The notes under the pieces are model-generated. The model saw only the letters and a program-made list of their open reading frames with translations, was not told where the DNA came from and did no database searches. From Malaciobacter pacificus (lineage in GTDB: Bacteria; Campylobacterota; Campylobacteria; Campylobacterales; Arcobacteraceae), in the NCBI RefSeq assembly GCF_004214795.1, contig NZ_CP035928.1, positions 1,240,001-1,304,000 on the forward strand: a stretch of DNA of 64,000 bases. The letters are read 5' to 3'. Below, piece after piece: positions 5,523 through 64,000 of the stretch. The translations under genes were made by a program, and so were the position numbers. Numbering within the stretch: the first letter of the stretch is position 1; each line of letters starts with the position of its first letter.

Positions 5523-6422
5523 ATGTCTAAGAATAATAATCTATTTTTTCAAAGTATAGTTGCAACTGTTATTTTAGGTGTAGCTTTTTCTGGATGTTCC
5601 TCAAAAAAAACTAGACTAGCAAGTAATACAACAATCAATAAGTTTTATAAAGATACTAATAATACAAAGATTAAAAACTCAAGAAATATGCATAAATATA
5701 CATTAAGACCATATAGTGTTTTTGGTATAAAATATTATCCTTTTGTGGCTAATGTAGGTGATGAATTTACAGGGATTGCATCTTGGTATGGTCCAGATTT
5801 TCATGCAAAGAAAACTTCAAATGGTGAAACCTATAATATGTACGCTTTAACAGCAGCACATAAGACTCTACCCATGAATACAGTTGTAAGAGTTGATAAC
5901 TTAGAAAATGGTAAATCTGTAATTGTAAGAATCAATGATAGAGGACCTTTTGTAAAAGGCAGAATAATTGACTTATCAAATAAAGCTGCCCATGCTATTG
6001 ATATGGTTAGAAAAGGTACAGCTAAAGTAAAAGTTACTGTATTAGGATATAATGGTGAAATAAATAATCATAATGCGCCTACTGTAGCTCATGTAAAACA
6101 GATACCTGTTGAAACTAAACCAAAGGTTATTGATGTAGGTGAAGCTATTAACCCTACAACAATAGAAGAAAATACTGTAACACCTTCTAGTGTAGGAGCA
6201 TATAATATTCAAGTAGGAGCCTTTTCAAAAGCTCAAGGTGCTATTGAAACAAGAGATAAATTTCAAAGTTTATACCCTTCAAATAAAGTTGAAGCAAAAA
6301 GAGAATTTACGAATGGACAATATTTTTATAAAGTATTTATAAAAGGGTTTTCAACAAAAACTGATGCAGAAGTATTTAAATTAGAAAATGGTTTAAATAG
6401 TTCAATGATAGTAAAAGATTAA
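5523..6422 (+). CDS. rlpA: RlpA-like septal lytic transglycosylase lipoprotein with SPOR domain
   Basis: A 299-aa lipoprotein. The signal peptide ends in a lipobox with Cys25 (AFSGC). The double-psi beta-barrel domain includes [19 protein letters not shown] and VRINDRGPF, with the catalytic-type Asp in NDRGP. A C-terminal SPOR domain (about 225-299, [14 protein letters not shown]) binds denuded septal glycan. The family localizes to the division site and trims peptidoglycan. Only 11 bp separate it from hisB. Confidence 0.9.
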
Positions 6423-16494: not shown

Positions 16495-19400
16495 TTAATT
16501 AGCTACTTTTATAGCTATTTGATAGTCAGTTAAGTAATTTAAAATAGAATAAATTTTAATATAGTAAACTCCAGAATCAAGAGTTAAATTATCAATTTTT
16601 GTAGAATTATTATTAAAAGAACTATCAAATATTTTATTAGATAAACCTTGTTTATAAATTTCATAATTAGCTAGATTAAGAGTAGTTAATGCTTCAATTG
16701 AAATAGTAGTTTGTTCAGTTAATTCAAATTTTAAATAATCAATATCATCACTAAGTTCTAAACTACCAGTAGTTGTTGTATTAAGAGATACTTCTGCTGC
16801 ACTTGATTGAGTATTACTATAATCATCATGATTAACAATACCTGAAGAACCTTTTATAGCTATTTGATAGTCAGTTAAGTAATTTAAAATAGAATAAATT
16901 TTAATATAGTAAACTCCAGAATCAAGAGTTAAATTATCAATTTTTGTAGAATTATTATTAAAAGAACTATCAAATATTTTATTAGATAAACCTTGTTTAT
17001 AAATTTCATAATTAGCTAGATTAAGAGTAGTTAATGCTTCAATTGAAATAGTAGTTTGTTCAGTTAATTCAAATTTTAAATAATCAATATCATCACTAAG
17101 TTCTAAACTACCAGTAGTTGTTGTATTAAGAGATACTTCTGCTGCACTTGATTGAGTATTACTATAATCATCATGATTAACAATACCTGAAGAACCTTTT
17201 ATAGCTATTTGATAGTCAGTTAAGTAATTTAAAATAGAATAAATTTTAATATAGTAAACTCCAGAATCAAGAGTTAAATTATCAATTTTTGTAGAATTAT
17301 TATTAAAAGAACTATCAAATATTTTATTAGATAAACCTTGTTTATAAATTTCATAATTAGCTAGATTAAGAGTAGTTAATGCTTCAATTGAAATAGTAGT
17401 TTGTTCAGCTAATTCAAATTTTAAATAATCAATATCATCACTAAGTTCTAAACTACCAGTAGTTGTTGTATTAAGAGATACTTCTGCTGCACTTGATTGA
17501 GTATTACTATAATCATCATGATTAACAATACCTGAAGAACCTTTTATAGCTATTTGATAGTCAGTTAAGTAATTTAAAATAGAATAAATTTTAATATAGT
17601 AAACTCCAGAATCAAGAGTTAAATTATCAATTTTTGTAGAATTATTATTAAAAGAACTATCAAATATTTTATTAGATAAACCTTGTTTATAAATTTCATA
17701 ATTAGCTAGATTAAGAGTAGTTAATGCTTCAATTGAAATAGTAGTTTGTTCAGCTAATTCAAATTTTAAATAATCAATATCATCACTAAGTTCTAAACTA
17801 CCAGTAGTTGTTGTATTAAGAGATACTTCTGCTGCACTTGATTGAGTATTACTATAATCATCATGATTAACAATACCTGAAGAACCTTTTATAGCTATTT
17901 GATAGTCAGTTAAGTAATTTAAAATAGAATAAATTTTAATATAGTAAACTCCAGAATCAAGAGTTAAATTATCAATTTTTGTAGAATTATTATTAAAAGA
18001 ACTATCAAATATTTTATTAGATAAACCTTGTTTATAAATTTCATAATTAGCTAGATTAAGAGTAGTTAATGCTTCAATTGAAATAGTAGTTTGTTCAGTT
18101 AATTCAAATTTTAAATAATCAATATCATCACTAAGTTCTAAACTACCAGTAGTTGTTGTATTAAGAGATACTTCTGCTGCACTTGATTGAGTATTACTAT
18201 AATCATCATGATTAACAATACCTGAAGAACCTTTTATAGCTATTTGATAGTCAGTTAAGTAATTTAAAATAGAATAAATTTTAATATAGTAAACTCCAGA
18301 ATCAAGAGTTAAATTATCAATTTTTGTAGAATTATTATTAAAAGAACTATCAAATATTTTATTAGATAAACCTTGTTTATAAATTTCATAATTAGCTAGA
18401 TTAAGAGTAGTTAATGCTTCAATTGAAATAGTAGTTTGTTCAGTTAATTCAAATTTTAAATAATCAATATCATCACTAAGTTCTAAACTACCAGTAGTTG
18501 TTGTATTAAGAGATACTTCTGTTGCACTTGATTGAGTATTACTATAATCATCTAAAGATATATTTTCACTTGGGACAGTGTTTTCATAAACATCAATAAC
18601 TTGAATACCAATTATTCCTGATTGTGAACTATTATTAGAAGAATCTGTAGCTACTACATATATTTCATAATAGTCTTTTGTTTCATAATCAGGGGCTGCT
18701 TTAAATGTAATCTCTCCTGTTGTAGAATCTATATTAAAATAACTTGCATCAACTCCAGTTAAACTATATGTGATTTCAGATTCATCAGTGGCTGTAATTG
18801 TTACACTAAATGTAGTATCATTTTCATTTACTCCTGAATGCATTCCTAATTCTGGTGGAAGATCTGTAAATACAGGAGCTGTAACATCTGGCTCATAAAT
18901 ATCATTAATACTTATTGTAATCTCTTTTGAAGTGCTATTATTTGAAGTATCTACTGCTTTAACAATTATTACATATGAGTTTTTTGTTTCATAATCAGGT
19001 GCTGCTTTAAAAGTAATCTCTCCTGTTGTTGAATCTATATTAAATAAATCTGCATCTGTTCCACTAATTGAATATATTAAACTTGATGAATTATCAGTGG
19101 CATTTATTGTAAATGCAGTTGTTTGATTTTCATCTATATTAATTGTTGAACTATTTGAAATAATAGGTGCTGTTATATCTACTTCATCCTCAACTAAAAA
19201 CTCTATTAAAACATCAGTGTTCCCACCATTATTTACTAAAGAATTACCTGCAAAATCCTTTAACTTTGAGCTTACAGTAAACTCTAAAGATTGTGAATAT
19301 GAAAAATTGTTTATAGGTTTTATTGTAACACTATCTTTATCTCCTTCTATTGTTAATTCAATATCATTTCCACTTGGATAGTCAACTAATCTAAAATACT

Positions 19401-20064
19401 CATTTGTTAAATATTGTTTAGGGATATCTTCTGAAAATGTTAGAACAATTGATGCATTTGTAGAAACACCTGTTTGTCCATTTGTAATAGAACTACTAAC
19501 TAATTCTATAGCAGTCATATCACTAATAACCCCATGTTGTTTTTGAGAATTTATTATATGTGCTCTAACTTCTTCAGGAGTTTTAACACTAAAACCATTT
19601 GATGTTAAAATTGTACTTATATTTAAATCGTCAATTGTTTTATTTGTATTTTCAAATTTAGTAAAATCTGATGAATTAATTTCAATTTCATCAGTACTAG
19701 AATCAGAATCTAGAGATTGTAATAAACCAGCTATTTTAAGTAATTTATTATCAGTAGTATTAGTTCTATCAATTCCTATAATATCTTGAATAAATACTTT
19801 ATTATCACTAGTCATAGAGTTTAATTCACCTAGTTTAATATCTCCTAAATAAAACTCAACTAAACCAGATGTATAAGGGAAATTACCATTTGAATCAGTA
19901 TATCCAGTATCTGTTCCATTTACATATTTAACACCAGAAATAATATTATCAATCAATGTACCAGTTGTAGCTAAAGGAGCACCAGAAGATGAACCTCCAC
20001 CTCCACAACCTACTAAAAATCCTGCTGTTATTGTTGATAGTATTAAAGAGTTTAATCTTTTCAT
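16495..20064 (-). CDS. Large surface lipoprotein: Ig-like, two cadherin-like and six near-identical PPC-type repeats
   Basis: 1,189 aa. Lipobox FLVGCGGGGSSSG (Cys about 20) and a Gly/Ser linker come first. Next is an N-terminal module (about 30-165), a bacterial Ig-like domain (NGQTGVSTNASIVLTFSEDI), and two cadherin-like repeats, each with ATD and LFNIDSTTGEITFKAAPDYE. Six tandem 115-aa repeats resembling pre-peptidase C-terminal domains (DDIDYLKFEL, GVYYIKIY) end the protein. No secretion-system tail is visible. Role in adhesion or biofilm is inference. ATG 20064 follows AAAGGAAAA; the promoter carries direct repeats. Confidence 0.85.
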   Translation of the reverse strand: MKRLNSLILSTITAGFLVGCGGGGSSSGAPLATTGTLIDNIISGVKYVNGTDTGYTDSNGNFPYTSGLVEFYLGDIKLGELNSMTSDNKVFIQDIIGIDRTNTTDNKLLKIAGLLQSLDSDSSTDEIEINSSDFTKFENTNKTIDDLNISTILTSNGFSVKTPEEVRAHIINSQKQHGVISDMTAIELVSSSITNGQTGVSTNASIVLTFSEDIPKQYLTNEYFRLVDYPSGNDIELTIEGDKDSVTIKPINNFSYSQSLEFTVSSKLKDFAGNSLVNNGGNTDVLIEFLVEDEVDITAPIISNSSTINIDENQTTAFTINATDNSSSLIYSISGTDADLFNIDSTTGEITFKAAPDYETKNSYVIIVKAVDTSNNSTSKEITISINDIYEPDVTAPVFTDLPPELGMHSGVNENDTTFSVTITATDESEITYSLTGVDASYFNIDSTTGEITFKAAPDYETKDYYEIYVVATDSSNNSSQSGIIGIQVIDVYENTVPSENISLDDYSNTQSSATEVSLNTTTTGSLELSDDIDYLKFELTEQTTISIEALTTLNLANYEIYKQGLSNKIFDSSFNNNSTKIDNLTLDSGVYYIKIYSILNYLTDYQIAIKGSSGIVNHDDYSNTQSSAAEVSLNTTTTGSLELSDDIDYLKFELTEQTTISIEALTTLNLANYEIYKQGLSNKIFDSSFNNNSTKIDNLTLDSGVYYIKIYSILNYLTDYQIAIKGSSGIVNHDDYSNTQSSAAEVSLNTTTTGSLELSDDIDYLKFELAEQTTISIEALTTLNLANYEIYKQGLSNKIFDSSFNNNSTKIDNLTLDSGVYYIKIYSILNYLTDYQIAIKGSSGIVNHDDYSNTQSSAAEVSLNTTTTGSLELSDDIDYLKFELAEQTTISIEALTTLNLANYEIYKQGLSNKIFDSSFNNNSTKIDNLTLDSGVYYIKIYSILNYLTDYQIAIKGSSGIVNHDDYSNTQSSAAEVSLNTTTTGSLELSDDIDYLKFELTEQTTISIEALTTLNLANYEIYKQGLSNKIFDSSFNNNSTKIDNLTLDSGVYYIKIYSILNYLTDYQIAIKGSSGIVNHDDYSNTQSSAAEVSLNTTTTGSLELSDDIDYLKFELTEQTTISIEALTTLNLANYEIYKQGLSNKIFDSSFNNNSTKIDNLTLDSGVYYIKIYSILNYLTDYQIAIKVAN
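16501..18551 (-). repeat. Six tandem 345-bp coding repeats
   Basis: The marker TATTTGATAG recurs at 16516, 16861, 17206, 17551, 17896 and 18241, exactly 345 bp apart. Copies differ at only a few bases: CAGCT instead of CAGTT in two middle copies (FELAEQ versus FELTEQ) and GTTGC instead of GCTGC in the N-terminal copy. The near identity at synonymous sites indicates recent expansion or ongoing gene conversion. Confidence 0.97.
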
Positions 20065-20091: not shown

Positions 20092-20148
20092 ATTATAGCA
20101 AGCAAATGACTCAGAAATGACTCATTTTTTGTGTCATAAAAGTGTCAA
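20092..20148 (-). promoter_or_regulatory. Promoter of the repeat lipoprotein with four 11/12-bp spaced direct repeats
   Basis: On the + strand TGACTCA lies at 20107-20113 and 20118-20124, then TGTGTCA at 20130-20136 and AGTGTCA at 20141-20147: steps of 11, 12 and 11 bp, one side of the helix. The minus-strand -10 TATAAT is at 20092-20097, 9 nt from the nearest repeat, so the repeats cover the -35 region. This is the layout of a response-regulator activator site. A matching arrangement is at 63488-63520. Confidence 0.6.
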
Positions 20149-61531: not shown

Positions 61532-62182
61532 TTATATAAAGTCTGCTCTATAACCAACTCCAGAAACATTTTTTATAAGCTCTTTATATACTTTTTTTCT
61601 AAGTTCTTTTACAACAGATCTTAAAGCATCTTGACTCATATTTTCATCCCAAACTTCATTTTGAATCTCTTCATAATTTAATGCTCTATTAGGATTTCTA
61701 AGTAATAAGTCTAAAAATAGTGCCTCTTTATTTGATAGTGAAACTATTTCATCTTTTTTTATTAATGTTTTGTTGTATAAATCATATATAAAATCATTTT
61801 TTAATTTTATAATATTTGATTTATTTGAATCTAATTGTTTTATACAGTCTTTTAAAACATTTTTGAATTCTTCTTTGCAATTCAAGTTTTGAAGAAACTT
61901 AATATGTTCTAACTCAACACTTTGTTTTAAATATTCTTTTTTTAATTCATCTAAGATTGCAACAACTTGAATATTATCATTTATTTTTCTAACTTTTTTT
62001 AATGACTCATAATTATATGTAGTTATTAATAGATTAATTTTTTTTTCATTTACTAAATTAACTAACTCATCTTCATTATTAAATCTTGATAGATTTTTAG
62101 TATTTGAAATTAGATAGTCATTGATTTCATTATCTAATAGATTATCATAATAACCTATATTTAAAAATTTTAGTTCTCTCAT
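61532..62182 (-). CDS. Winged-helix regulator with a degenerate receiver domain
   Basis: 216 aa. The C-terminal OmpR-type winged helix is clear (SLSNKEALFLDLLLRNPNRALNYEEIQNEVWD, ALRSVVKELRKKV, VSGVGYRADF). The N-terminal 115 residues have the strand-helix order of a receiver (LNIGYYDN, KINLLITTYNYESL, IQVVAILDE) but no acidic pocket or phospho-Asp, so it should work without phosphorylation. ATG 62182 after GAGGAAA is preferred to ATG 62203. No histidine kinase adjacent. Confidence 0.85.
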   Translation of the reverse strand: MRELKFLNIGYYDNLLDNEINDYLISNTKNLSRFNNEDELVNLVNEKKINLLITTYNYESLKKVRKINDNIQVVAILDELKKEYLKQSVELEHIKFLQNLNCKEEFKNVLKDCIKQLDSNKSNIIKLKNDFIYDLYNKTLIKKDEIVSLSNKEALFLDLLLRNPNRALNYEEIQNEVWDENMSQDALRSVVKELRKKVYKELIKNVSGVGYRADFI

Positions 62183-62318
62183 AAATTTCCTCAAACTTCT
62201 CATTTATTGTATTTTATCAATAAAATATGATAAAAAAATGAATTGAATAGGTATTTATATCATAGTAAAAATAAAAGATAATTTAAATAGATTTTAAATA
62301 ATTTTGTATAACGTTAAT

Positions 62319-62351
62319 GTAGAAAAAAACTATGTATAGTTATTTTTCTAC
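62319..62351 (-). terminator. Terminator of the small lipoprotein gene
   Basis: GTAGAAAAAAACTAT (62319-62333) pairs with ATAGTTATTTTTCTAC (62336-62351), minus-strand message, with the stem spanning the stop codon. 62204-62318 is AT-rich and shows no gene. Confidence 0.6.
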
Positions 62352-62639
62352 AGAAGAGAACATTTTTTGACAAATTTCTACTTGCATTCCTTCGTGCCAT
62401 CCACAATTAAGACCACATTTAAAAATCGCAGATTTTTGTAGGTTTTGATTATTTATCTGTTTGATAGATTCATCTTTACACTCTTGTAAAGTTTTAAAAG
62501 TTACAGGACTTTTTACACTTCTTTTTGTATTTTCTTTATCTGGGTAGATAAATGCAGTCCAATTTTCTTCTTCTTTCTCTCCAAAACATCCTGAGAAAAG
62601 AACTGAAGCTGTAGCTAATATTAATAAGTTTTTTAACAT
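62340..62639 (-). CDS. Small lipoprotein of unknown function
   Basis: 99 aa. Lipobox with Cys18 (LFSGC). The mature part has four further cysteines (QECKDE, FKCGLNCGWHEG, EICQKMF), which suggests disulfide-bonded folding in the periplasm. No known domain. Confidence 0.75.
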   Translation of the reverse strand: MLKNLLILATASVLFSGCFGEKEEENWTAFIYPDKENTKRSVKSPVTFKTLQECKDESIKQINNQNLQKSAIFKCGLNCGWHEGMQVEICQKMFSSVEK

Positions 62640-62688: not shown

Positions 62689-63456
62689 TTAAACTGAAAT
62701 ATTTTGCAAGCTCTCTTTTATTAGATTAAAGTTTTTAAGTTCTTCTTTTAGTCTTAAATTTTCTAAATATAGCTCAATTGCTTTTTTTAATTGCTCACTA
62801 ATTTTACCTGTTGAAGCTGCTTTATTTATAGTATCAGGTTTATATCCAAGTTCAAAAGCTAATATCTTGTATGTTGAATTAAGATCTTTACAAACGCTTT
62901 TTATTAAATTTGGGTTTAAGTCTTCAAATAGTTGAGCAGTATCTATGTCAAATGATTGTGCAACATCTTCTATTATTTCTCTTTTTTCTAAAAGAGTTTT
63001 TCTATATAAATATTGTTTATTTGACGGGTCAAATAGTTTTAAATTATCTTTTTTAATTGAAATAAAAAGATTTTTCCCATTACATCCTATGATTTTTTCA
63101 AAAGCATTCACTAATGATTCTTCATCTAAGTGCTTAAAAGTCTCAATAAACATAAATGAATTTATATATTTTGTTTTAGTTTTAGACTCTTTATACTCCT
63201 CAAAAGTAAACTCTACTAACTCATTTTTAAAATTTATTTGAAGACTCTCCTTTGGTATATGGGATTTTATTACCAAATGAAAATGCAATAAATTATCTCT
63301 ATTATTAGAAAAAATATTAATTATGTCTTTTTTATTTATACCTTTTTTAGATAGTTCATTTATTACTGTCTCTATGTAGTTTAAATCCTTATAGTTATTA
63401 TCTTTATCTCTAACTAAATAAGGAATTTTATTGTATAACTTCCCAACTTGTATCAT
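62689..63456 (-). CDS. Unknown cytoplasmic protein under a repeat-bearing promoter
   Basis: 255 aa, no signal peptide. A mixed N-terminal part (about 1-150) and a C-terminal part with helix patterns like DNA-binding or coiled-coil proteins (YKILAFELGYKPDTINKAASTGKISEQLKKAIELYLENLRLKEEL reads as an HTH-like segment then a leucine-rich helix). A transcriptional role is possible but unproven. ATG 63456 after AGGGA is chosen over TTG 63471. Confidence 0.65.
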   Translation of the reverse strand: MIQVGKLYNKIPYLVRDKDNNYKDLNYIETVINELSKKGINKKDIINIFSNNRDNLLHFHLVIKSHIPKESLQINFKNELVEFTFEEYKESKTKTKYINSFMFIETFKHLDEESLVNAFEKIIGCNGKNLFISIKKDNLKLFDPSNKQYLYRKTLLEKREIIEDVAQSFDIDTAQLFEDLNPNLIKSVCKDLNSTYKILAFELGYKPDTINKAASTGKISEQLKKAIELYLENLRLKEELKNFNLIKESLQNISV

Positions 63457-63487: not shown

Positions 63488-63520
63488 ATTATATTATACA
63501 AATGTCTCAGAAATGACTCA
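63488..63520 (-). promoter_or_regulatory. Promoter of the 255-aa gene with 11-bp spaced direct repeats
   Basis: TGTCTCA (63503-63509) and TGACTCA (63514-63520) are 11 bp apart. The minus-strand -10 TATAAT at 63488-63493 is 9 nt from the nearest repeat, the same geometry as at 20092-20124. The shared core is CTCAGAAATGACTCA. Confidence 0.6.
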
Positions 63521-63583
63521 ATTTACCTTTTATAAAAAGAAATTACAAATTTTTGTTTTACAATTATTATACATTTACTATGT

Positions 63584-63589
63584 TATAAT
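63584..63589 (+). promoter_or_regulatory. Candidate -10 for the DUF1104/response regulator unit
   Basis: TATAAT in TATGTTATAATC, 25 bp before ATG 63614. The leader carries AAAGTGACACAATG, whose GTGACAC resembles the complement of the GTGTCA half-sites at 20131 and 20142. Confidence 0.4.
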
Positions 63590-63613: not shown

Positions 63614-63832
63614 ATGAGAAAAATAGTAGTTTCTATAATATTTGTTTTTACTTCATTAATGGCTAAAGTTGATTATAGTGAAATGAGTACTCAAGAGCTT
63701 ATTGCTATTATGGGATATGTAAAGAGTGAAAATAAAAAAGCATTTAATAAAGAGTTGAATTCTAGAGTTCCTTTAATGAATACAAAAGAGTATGAAATGT
63801 ATAAAAAAAATAAAGAGAAATTAAATAGATAA
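63614..63832 (+). CDS. DUF1104 periplasmic protein
   Basis: 72 aa. Signal peptide MRKIVVSIIFVFTSLMA, then the DUF1104 pattern DYSEMSTQELIAIMGYVKSENKKAFNKELNSRV. Proteins of this kind occur in Campylobacterota, often beside two-component systems; here the stop overlaps the response regulator start by one base. It may be a sensor accessory (inference). Confidence 0.85.
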   Translation: MRKIVVSIIFVFTSLMAKVDYSEMSTQELIAIMGYVKSENKKAFNKELNSRVPLMNTKEYEMYKKNKEKLNR

Positions 63833-64000
63833 TGAAAGCAACAATTTTACTATTAGAAGATGATTTAACACTTAGTGAAACAGTAGTTGAATATTTTCAA
63901 GACCAAGGCTTTGATATTGATTTTGTATATGATGGAGAAGAAGCACTCTCATTTATATATGAAAAAAATTATGATTTACTTTTACTTGATGTTAATGTTC
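63832..64000 (+). CDS. Response regulator, N-terminal part (cut by the window end)
   Basis: 56 codons visible: receiver domain with the acidic pair LLLEDD (Glu9, Asp10, Asp11 region), YDGEEAL, and the phospho-acceptor Asp in YDLLLLDVNV. The output domain lies outside the window; OmpR type is likely by position after DUF1104. It is the nearest candidate for binding the direct repeats at 63503-63520 and 20107-20147. Confidence 0.85.
   Translation, partial: MKATILLLEDDLTLSETVVEYFQDQGFDIDFVYDGEEALSFIYEKNYDLLLLDVNV

Follow-up and report, generated by a model that had tools for sequence, protein, structure and literature searches.

Two distant genes in a stretch of Malaciobacter pacificus DNA (assembly GCF_004214795.1, contig NZ_CP035928.1, positions 1,240,001-1,304,000 of the forward strand; genome code G000), hereafter the window and 64,000 nt in length, appear to share a direct repeat ahead of the -10 element, and this raises the question of whether the repeat is a regulatory site, which genes it marks and which protein reads it. 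A reading made from the letters alone (the sequence-only reading) had described four half-sites in front of a surface lipoprotein gene, and all four are present: TGACTCA at 20107-20113 and again at 20118-20124, TGTGTCA at 20130-20136, and AGTGTCA at 20141-20147, at steps of 11, 12 and 11 bp. That observation is confirmed, and is here extended to the whole genome and its relatives. The elements concerned are as follows.

20105-20124, minus strand: box, copy 1, TGAGTCATTTCTGAGTCATT, two 7-bp half-sites with an 11-bp period
20092-20097, minus strand: -10 element of copy 1, TATAAT, 7 nt after the box and 9 nt after the last TGAGTCA
20130-20147, minus strand: two extra, putative half-site-like repeats, TGACAC-N5-TGACAC, upstream of copy 1
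16495-20064, minus strand: target of copy 1, a 1189-aa surface lipoprotein with a lipobox, Big_5 and cadherin-like domains and repeated PPC-like units
63501-63520, minus strand: box, copy 2, TGAGTCATTTCTGAGACATT
63488-63493, minus strand: -10 element of copy 2, TATAAT, 7 nt after the box
62689-63456, minus strand: target of copy 2, a 255-aa protein with no assigned function, starting more probably at ATG 63456 than at the listed TTG 63471

Ahead of the lipoprotein ATG at 20064, the minus-strand promoter reads TTTTGACACTTTTATGACACAAAAAA-TGAGTCATTTCTGAGTCATT-TGCTTGC-TATAAT, and the copy 2 promoter, facing the 255-aa gene, reads TGAGTCATTTCTGAGACATT-TGTATAA-TATAAT. Common to both is a 20-bp box on the minus strand, TGAGTCATTTCTGAG(A/T)CATT, that is located 7 nt before TATAAT and consists of two 7-bp direct repeats with an 11-bp period in place of a -35 element. 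The claim that the arrangement recurs at 63488-63520 stands for the exact core (63506-63520), the TATAAT, the orientation and the spacing, but not for the upstream pair of half-sites. A genome search met that pair (20130-20147) at no other promoter, and only the two proximal half-sites recur. Within the lipoprotein itself, the C-terminal half is made up of approximately six near-identical PPC-like units of roughly 105 aa each, suggesting a recent repeat expansion.

In the window alone, the 15-mer core, allowed 3 mismatches, does not reach significance. Across the 2.66-Mb genome, TGAGTCATTTCTGAGACATT with no more than 3 mismatches gives 21 matches compared with 0 for a reversed-pattern control, and nearly all of these copies lie immediately ahead of genes. 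The genome-wide search for repeats at this spacing that had been called for earlier (TGASNC-N5-TGASNC) returns 29 matches against 2 in the control, and the suspected regulon signal is borne out by a box at 21 promoters. A 33-bp matrix was built from 18 sites and used to scan extracted stretches of genome DNA as well as Markov sequence; true sites score 29-47 bits, the next best match in the scanned stretches scores 12.2, and nothing in the Markov sequence reaches 11. Of the 20 box columns, 18 are invariant or nearly so (invariant positions T0, G1, A2, G3, A6, T7-T9, T11, G12, A13, G14, C16 and T19), with an A-tract before the box and TGnTATAAT after it. The regulon is confirmed at the level of sequence, and on that level the box and its regulon would be new, of a known type, and unusual in their contents. 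One perfect box with a -10 (L179:5230; G000:C1:2101229) is followed by no ORF of at least 60 aa within 400 nt downstream, and Rfam gives no match at this locus; it may possibly precede a small RNA or peptide of a new kind.

In order to describe the targets, defence and lipoprotein labels were assigned from Pfam, PADLOC, lipobox patterns or inspection of the N-terminal sequence. Lipoproteins account for 7 of the 18 target proteins in M. pacificus compared with ∼5% of control genes (Fisher 6.6e-5). Other targets in this genome are Cas9, HsdM, SbcD, a type II secretion pseudopilin, a WecB-type epimerase, two HlyD fragments and a hemerythrin-like gene, along with proteins that have no assigned function. 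At G000:C1:567552 and 1014363 (L163 and L162), an identical stretch runs from the box into HlyD-like fragments, one of which is truncated, indicating a duplicated promoter-plus-gene segment. When relatives are included, the target classes are lipoproteins, surface-polysaccharide genes and defence genes. Cas6b lies behind a box in five genomes (G001, G002, G006, G010 and G019), and in a related genus, g2, the defence and nuclease targets comprise type I restriction enzymes, a ResIII-PLD protein, Mrr, HNH endonucleases, a NERD-UvrD helicase, bSEFIR and Mre11, with WYL regulators, PAS proteins beside chemoreceptor-like genes, polysaccharide genes and lipoproteins as further targets. Phosphate genes are absent among the box targets of M. 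pacificus and the relatives examined.

A strict 20-mer census detected the box in 10 of 104 genomes of the family, making the motif seem nearly unique to G000. This was misleading because g2 has AGAG where the strict motif has TGAG, and was corrected by a census that allowed one mismatch in the core. The g2 variant, AAAA-AGAGTCATTTG[AT]GAGTCATT, keeps its distance to the -10 unchanged and is found in about a dozen related genomes, with 10 copies in G001, 8 in G030, 6 in G019 and 5 each in G006 and G021. Box type varies by species, AGAG...GAG in g2 and TGAG...GAGA in G000. Throughout G000 and g2, 61 of 63 boxes are followed at offset 7 or 8 by a -10 matching at least 5 of 6 positions; matches in G008, G009, G016 and G026 were left out of this count because they are internal to long ORFs and no -10 accompanies them. 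Such 11-bp direct repeats at a fixed distance from the -10 agree with the earlier remark that phasing and position are OmpR-family-like. At the Mre11/SbcD promoter the box occurs at equal spacing in G019, G021, G022 and G030 and is decayed in G002, G006, G010 and G011, so that across species it is intact, one-off or decayed at constant spacing, a signature of selection on a binding site. In addition, cas6 promoters keep the box at a constant distance in five genomes, and the interval that separates an NFACT-like gene from the following gene cluster has a box and a lipoprotein gene in G000, G001, G002, G022 and G062. Approximately 1.7 kb from a box in G030, beside restriction genes, is a free-standing 131-aa winged-helix protein with no receiver (L152:3934-4329).

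Which protein reads the box was approached through the regulators of the window, for which four further features are relevant.

63832-64000, plus strand: start of an OmpR-type response regulator (P0003) that extends past the window; not supported as the binder
63560-63589, plus strand: a different conserved direct repeat, ACAATTATT/ACATTTACT, with an 11-bp period and a TATAAT, in the promoter of the DUF1104-RR operon
62340-62639, minus strand: 99-aa lipoprotein gene directly upstream of the candidate regulator, an arrangement conserved in relatives
61532-62203, minus strand: candidate regulator, OmpR-type, with a receiver fold but no phosphoacceptor, Trans_reg_C as sole Pfam match and a likely start at M8 (∼62182)

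The sequence-only reading had nominated the response regulator that begins at 63832, which is OmpR-type and lies ∼300 bp from copy 2. We reject it as the binder because its own promoter carries another repeat and because orthologs from box-free genomes share its recognition helix, YSDNSLRTYIKNLRK, without change. The protein is widespread, with an ortholog in 13 g2 genomes that have no box, and ACAATTATTATACA(G/T)TT, a deeply conserved 11-bp direct repeat found ahead of the DUF1104-RR-HK operon across the family and at 63560-63589 in the window, is probably its own site. That this regulator reads the box is therefore extremely improbable.

The DNA-binding domains of the G000 regulators were compared in box-bearing and box-free genomes, and the search pointed to 61532-62203. 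Boxes are present in 12 of 15 g2 genomes with an ortholog of this regulator and in 0 of 13 without it (Fisher 1.5e-5), a P value that overstates the evidence since in a tree of neighbouring genes the 13 genomes that have neither regulator nor boxes group as a single clade, so that the co-occurrence represents one evolutionary event. The ABC transporter and response regulator neighbours are kept in nearly all of the 13. In box-bearing g2 genomes the ortholog adjoins the DUF1104-RR operon, and in the window the gene shares its strand with copy 2 and lies downstream of it, the successive genes (63456-62689, 62639-62340 and 62203-61532) being separated by small gaps only. No box is found at the ortholog's own promoter in g2; a repeat related to the box, TTAGTCAYTTTTTAGTCATTT, is located upstream of the ortholog's own operon in two g19 genomes. 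An ortholog with a near-identical recognition helix also occurs, with no strict boxes, in G024, G026 and G020 and in genera g5, g16 and g19. We conclude that 61532-62203 is most likely the best candidate, and a better one than the 63832 regulator. A phyletic profile drawn from strict-motif genomes alone had matched no regulator and is superseded by this comparison.

The candidate matches PF00486 (Trans_reg_C) at 49.1 bits against a cut-off of 26.2, and has no Response_reg match in Pfam. Its structure model consists of a receiver-like alpha/beta domain and a winged helix (wHTH), with a mean pLDDT of 88, and yet the ortholog alignment shows that the acidic pair, the phosphoacceptor Asp and the Lys are all absent, unlike in regulator 2338830. 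A receiver without these phosphorylation residues suggests that the protein would act without a classical kinase. The fold matches OmpR/PhoB proteins, including CosR and HP1043 (2hqr), at 14-17% identity, which denotes fold similarity alone. Another regulator of G000, 347356, is widely conserved and presumably resembles CosR more. As a matter of speculation, the adjoining 99-aa lipoprotein could belong to the signalling of the 61532-62203 regulator.

This OmpR-type DNA-binding domain is found in about 34 full-length regulators of the M. pacificus genome, and the box could instead be read by another accessory member (for example 2460974, 382273, 1167377 or 1558174) or by a protein from a different regulator family. 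At least two of these, 2460974 and 382273, share the presence pattern of 61532-62203 in the genomes compared, being found in G001, G022 and G030 but in none of six genomes without boxes. However, none of the other accessory regulators is known to be near a box, and box-free genomes contain 537094, a close paralog of 382273 whose recognition helix is similar; a different reader is a possibility that we consider rather unlikely. Regulator 1165498 was discarded because G006 carries boxes but lacks it and G026 possesses it without any real box; 2338830 was discarded because it is absent from g2.

A separate matter is what binding would do. A repressor could keep the genes off until a signal is received, and the box does overlap the -35 position, where repressors also act, at many targets (nucleases and defence genes) that could be costly. 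Nevertheless, a repressor needs neither a nearly invariant distance to the -10, such as the 7 or 8 nt seen in 61 of 63 boxes, nor the lack of a -35 consensus, making repression distinctly improbable. It is still harder to credit that the box is a constitutive promoter cassette dispersed by copying rather than a regulated site. The identical stretch downstream of copies 567552 and 1014363 and the near absence of intermediate-strength sites would suit such a cassette, but the remaining copies differ in flanks and spacers, at orthologous promoters the repeats persist although the boxes diverge, and the box type changes with the species.

We therefore favor, as moderately probable, a PhoB-type activator box present in ∼20 copies in the genome and read most likely by the 61532-62203 regulator. 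Two TGAGNCA heptamers, each followed by four A/T-rich bases, would occupy the same side of the DNA helix and stand in for the -35 element, with an extended -10 (TGnTATAAT) 9 nt downstream. An OmpR-type winged-helix dimer occupying both repeats would recruit the housekeeping RNA polymerase and, as for HP1043 of H. pylori, the absence of phosphorylation residues would remove the need for a classical kinase. Surface lipoproteins, polysaccharide genes and mobile defence genes (Cas9, Cas6b, restriction enzymes and SbcD/Mre11) would thereby be joined into one surface-defence regulon in M. pacificus and part of a related genus. Activation rather than repression, like the identity of the regulator, is what we infer from sequence comparison, and the pho-box layout together with HP1043-like helical phasing supports, by analogy, an activator that contacts RNA polymerase.

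Several known systems invite comparison. In the pho box bound by PhoB, two 7-bp direct repeats, each with ∼4 A/T bases, form a 22-bp unit that lies near the -10 and replaces the -35 (PMC4971064). The present box has an equal repeat layout and -35 replacement, but its repeat is TGAGNCA, its targets are not phosphate genes and its candidate binder has no phosphoacceptor; it is not part of the Pho regulon. HP1043/HsrA of H. pylori binds TTTAAG-N5-TTTAAG direct repeats with centers 11 bp apart (PMC5253667). This CosR-type protein resembles 61532-62203 in coming from the same phylum, in the repeat spacing of 11 bp, and in a degenerate receiver with predicted phosphorylation-independent action. However, its repeat sequence is different, identity in the fold alignments is at most 17%, and HP1043 is conserved everywhere and controls essential housekeeping genes, whereas 61532-62203 is accessory with different targets. 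PceP, an OmpR-family response regulator of Sulfurospirillum, uses a direct repeat that overlaps the -35 box of a small regulon (PMC7755780); it shares the phylum and the -35 location, but has a CTATW-N17-CTATW repeat, an intact phosphorylatable receiver with a kinase, and organohalide genes as targets. In Serratia, Rsm/Csr brings several CRISPR-Cas systems under one regulator (PMC8450108), and is likewise a single regulator for several defence systems, although it acts post-transcriptionally whereas the present system is a promoter box common to CRISPR, restriction and surface genes. In the Arcobacter/Aliarcobacter literature, we found no paper on the box or the 61532-62203 regulator.

Little is known of how bacteria turn on their defence systems. 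Should the regulon be real, one transcription factor governs many defence systems unrelated to one another, together with surface proteins, and the box offers a precise means of finding regulon members in new genomes. We tentatively suggest that a phosphorylation-independent OmpR-type regulator may run an envelope-plus-immunity regulon in Arcobacter-like bacteria, with newly acquired defences wired into one switch. An equally provisional extension is that horizontally acquired type II and I-B CRISPR, restriction, SEFIR and nuclease-helicase systems might all come under one PhoB-like box.

The boxes of genus g10 may have another reader, given that relatives of regulator 2338830 are present in genomes G055, G062 and G066 of that genus. 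Two other g10 genomes, G056 and G058, contain the box TGAGACATTTGTGAGACATT in reversed orientation; it is separated by ∼18-19 nt from the -10 that precedes a gene for a chemoreceptor (L155 and L156, near position 6001).
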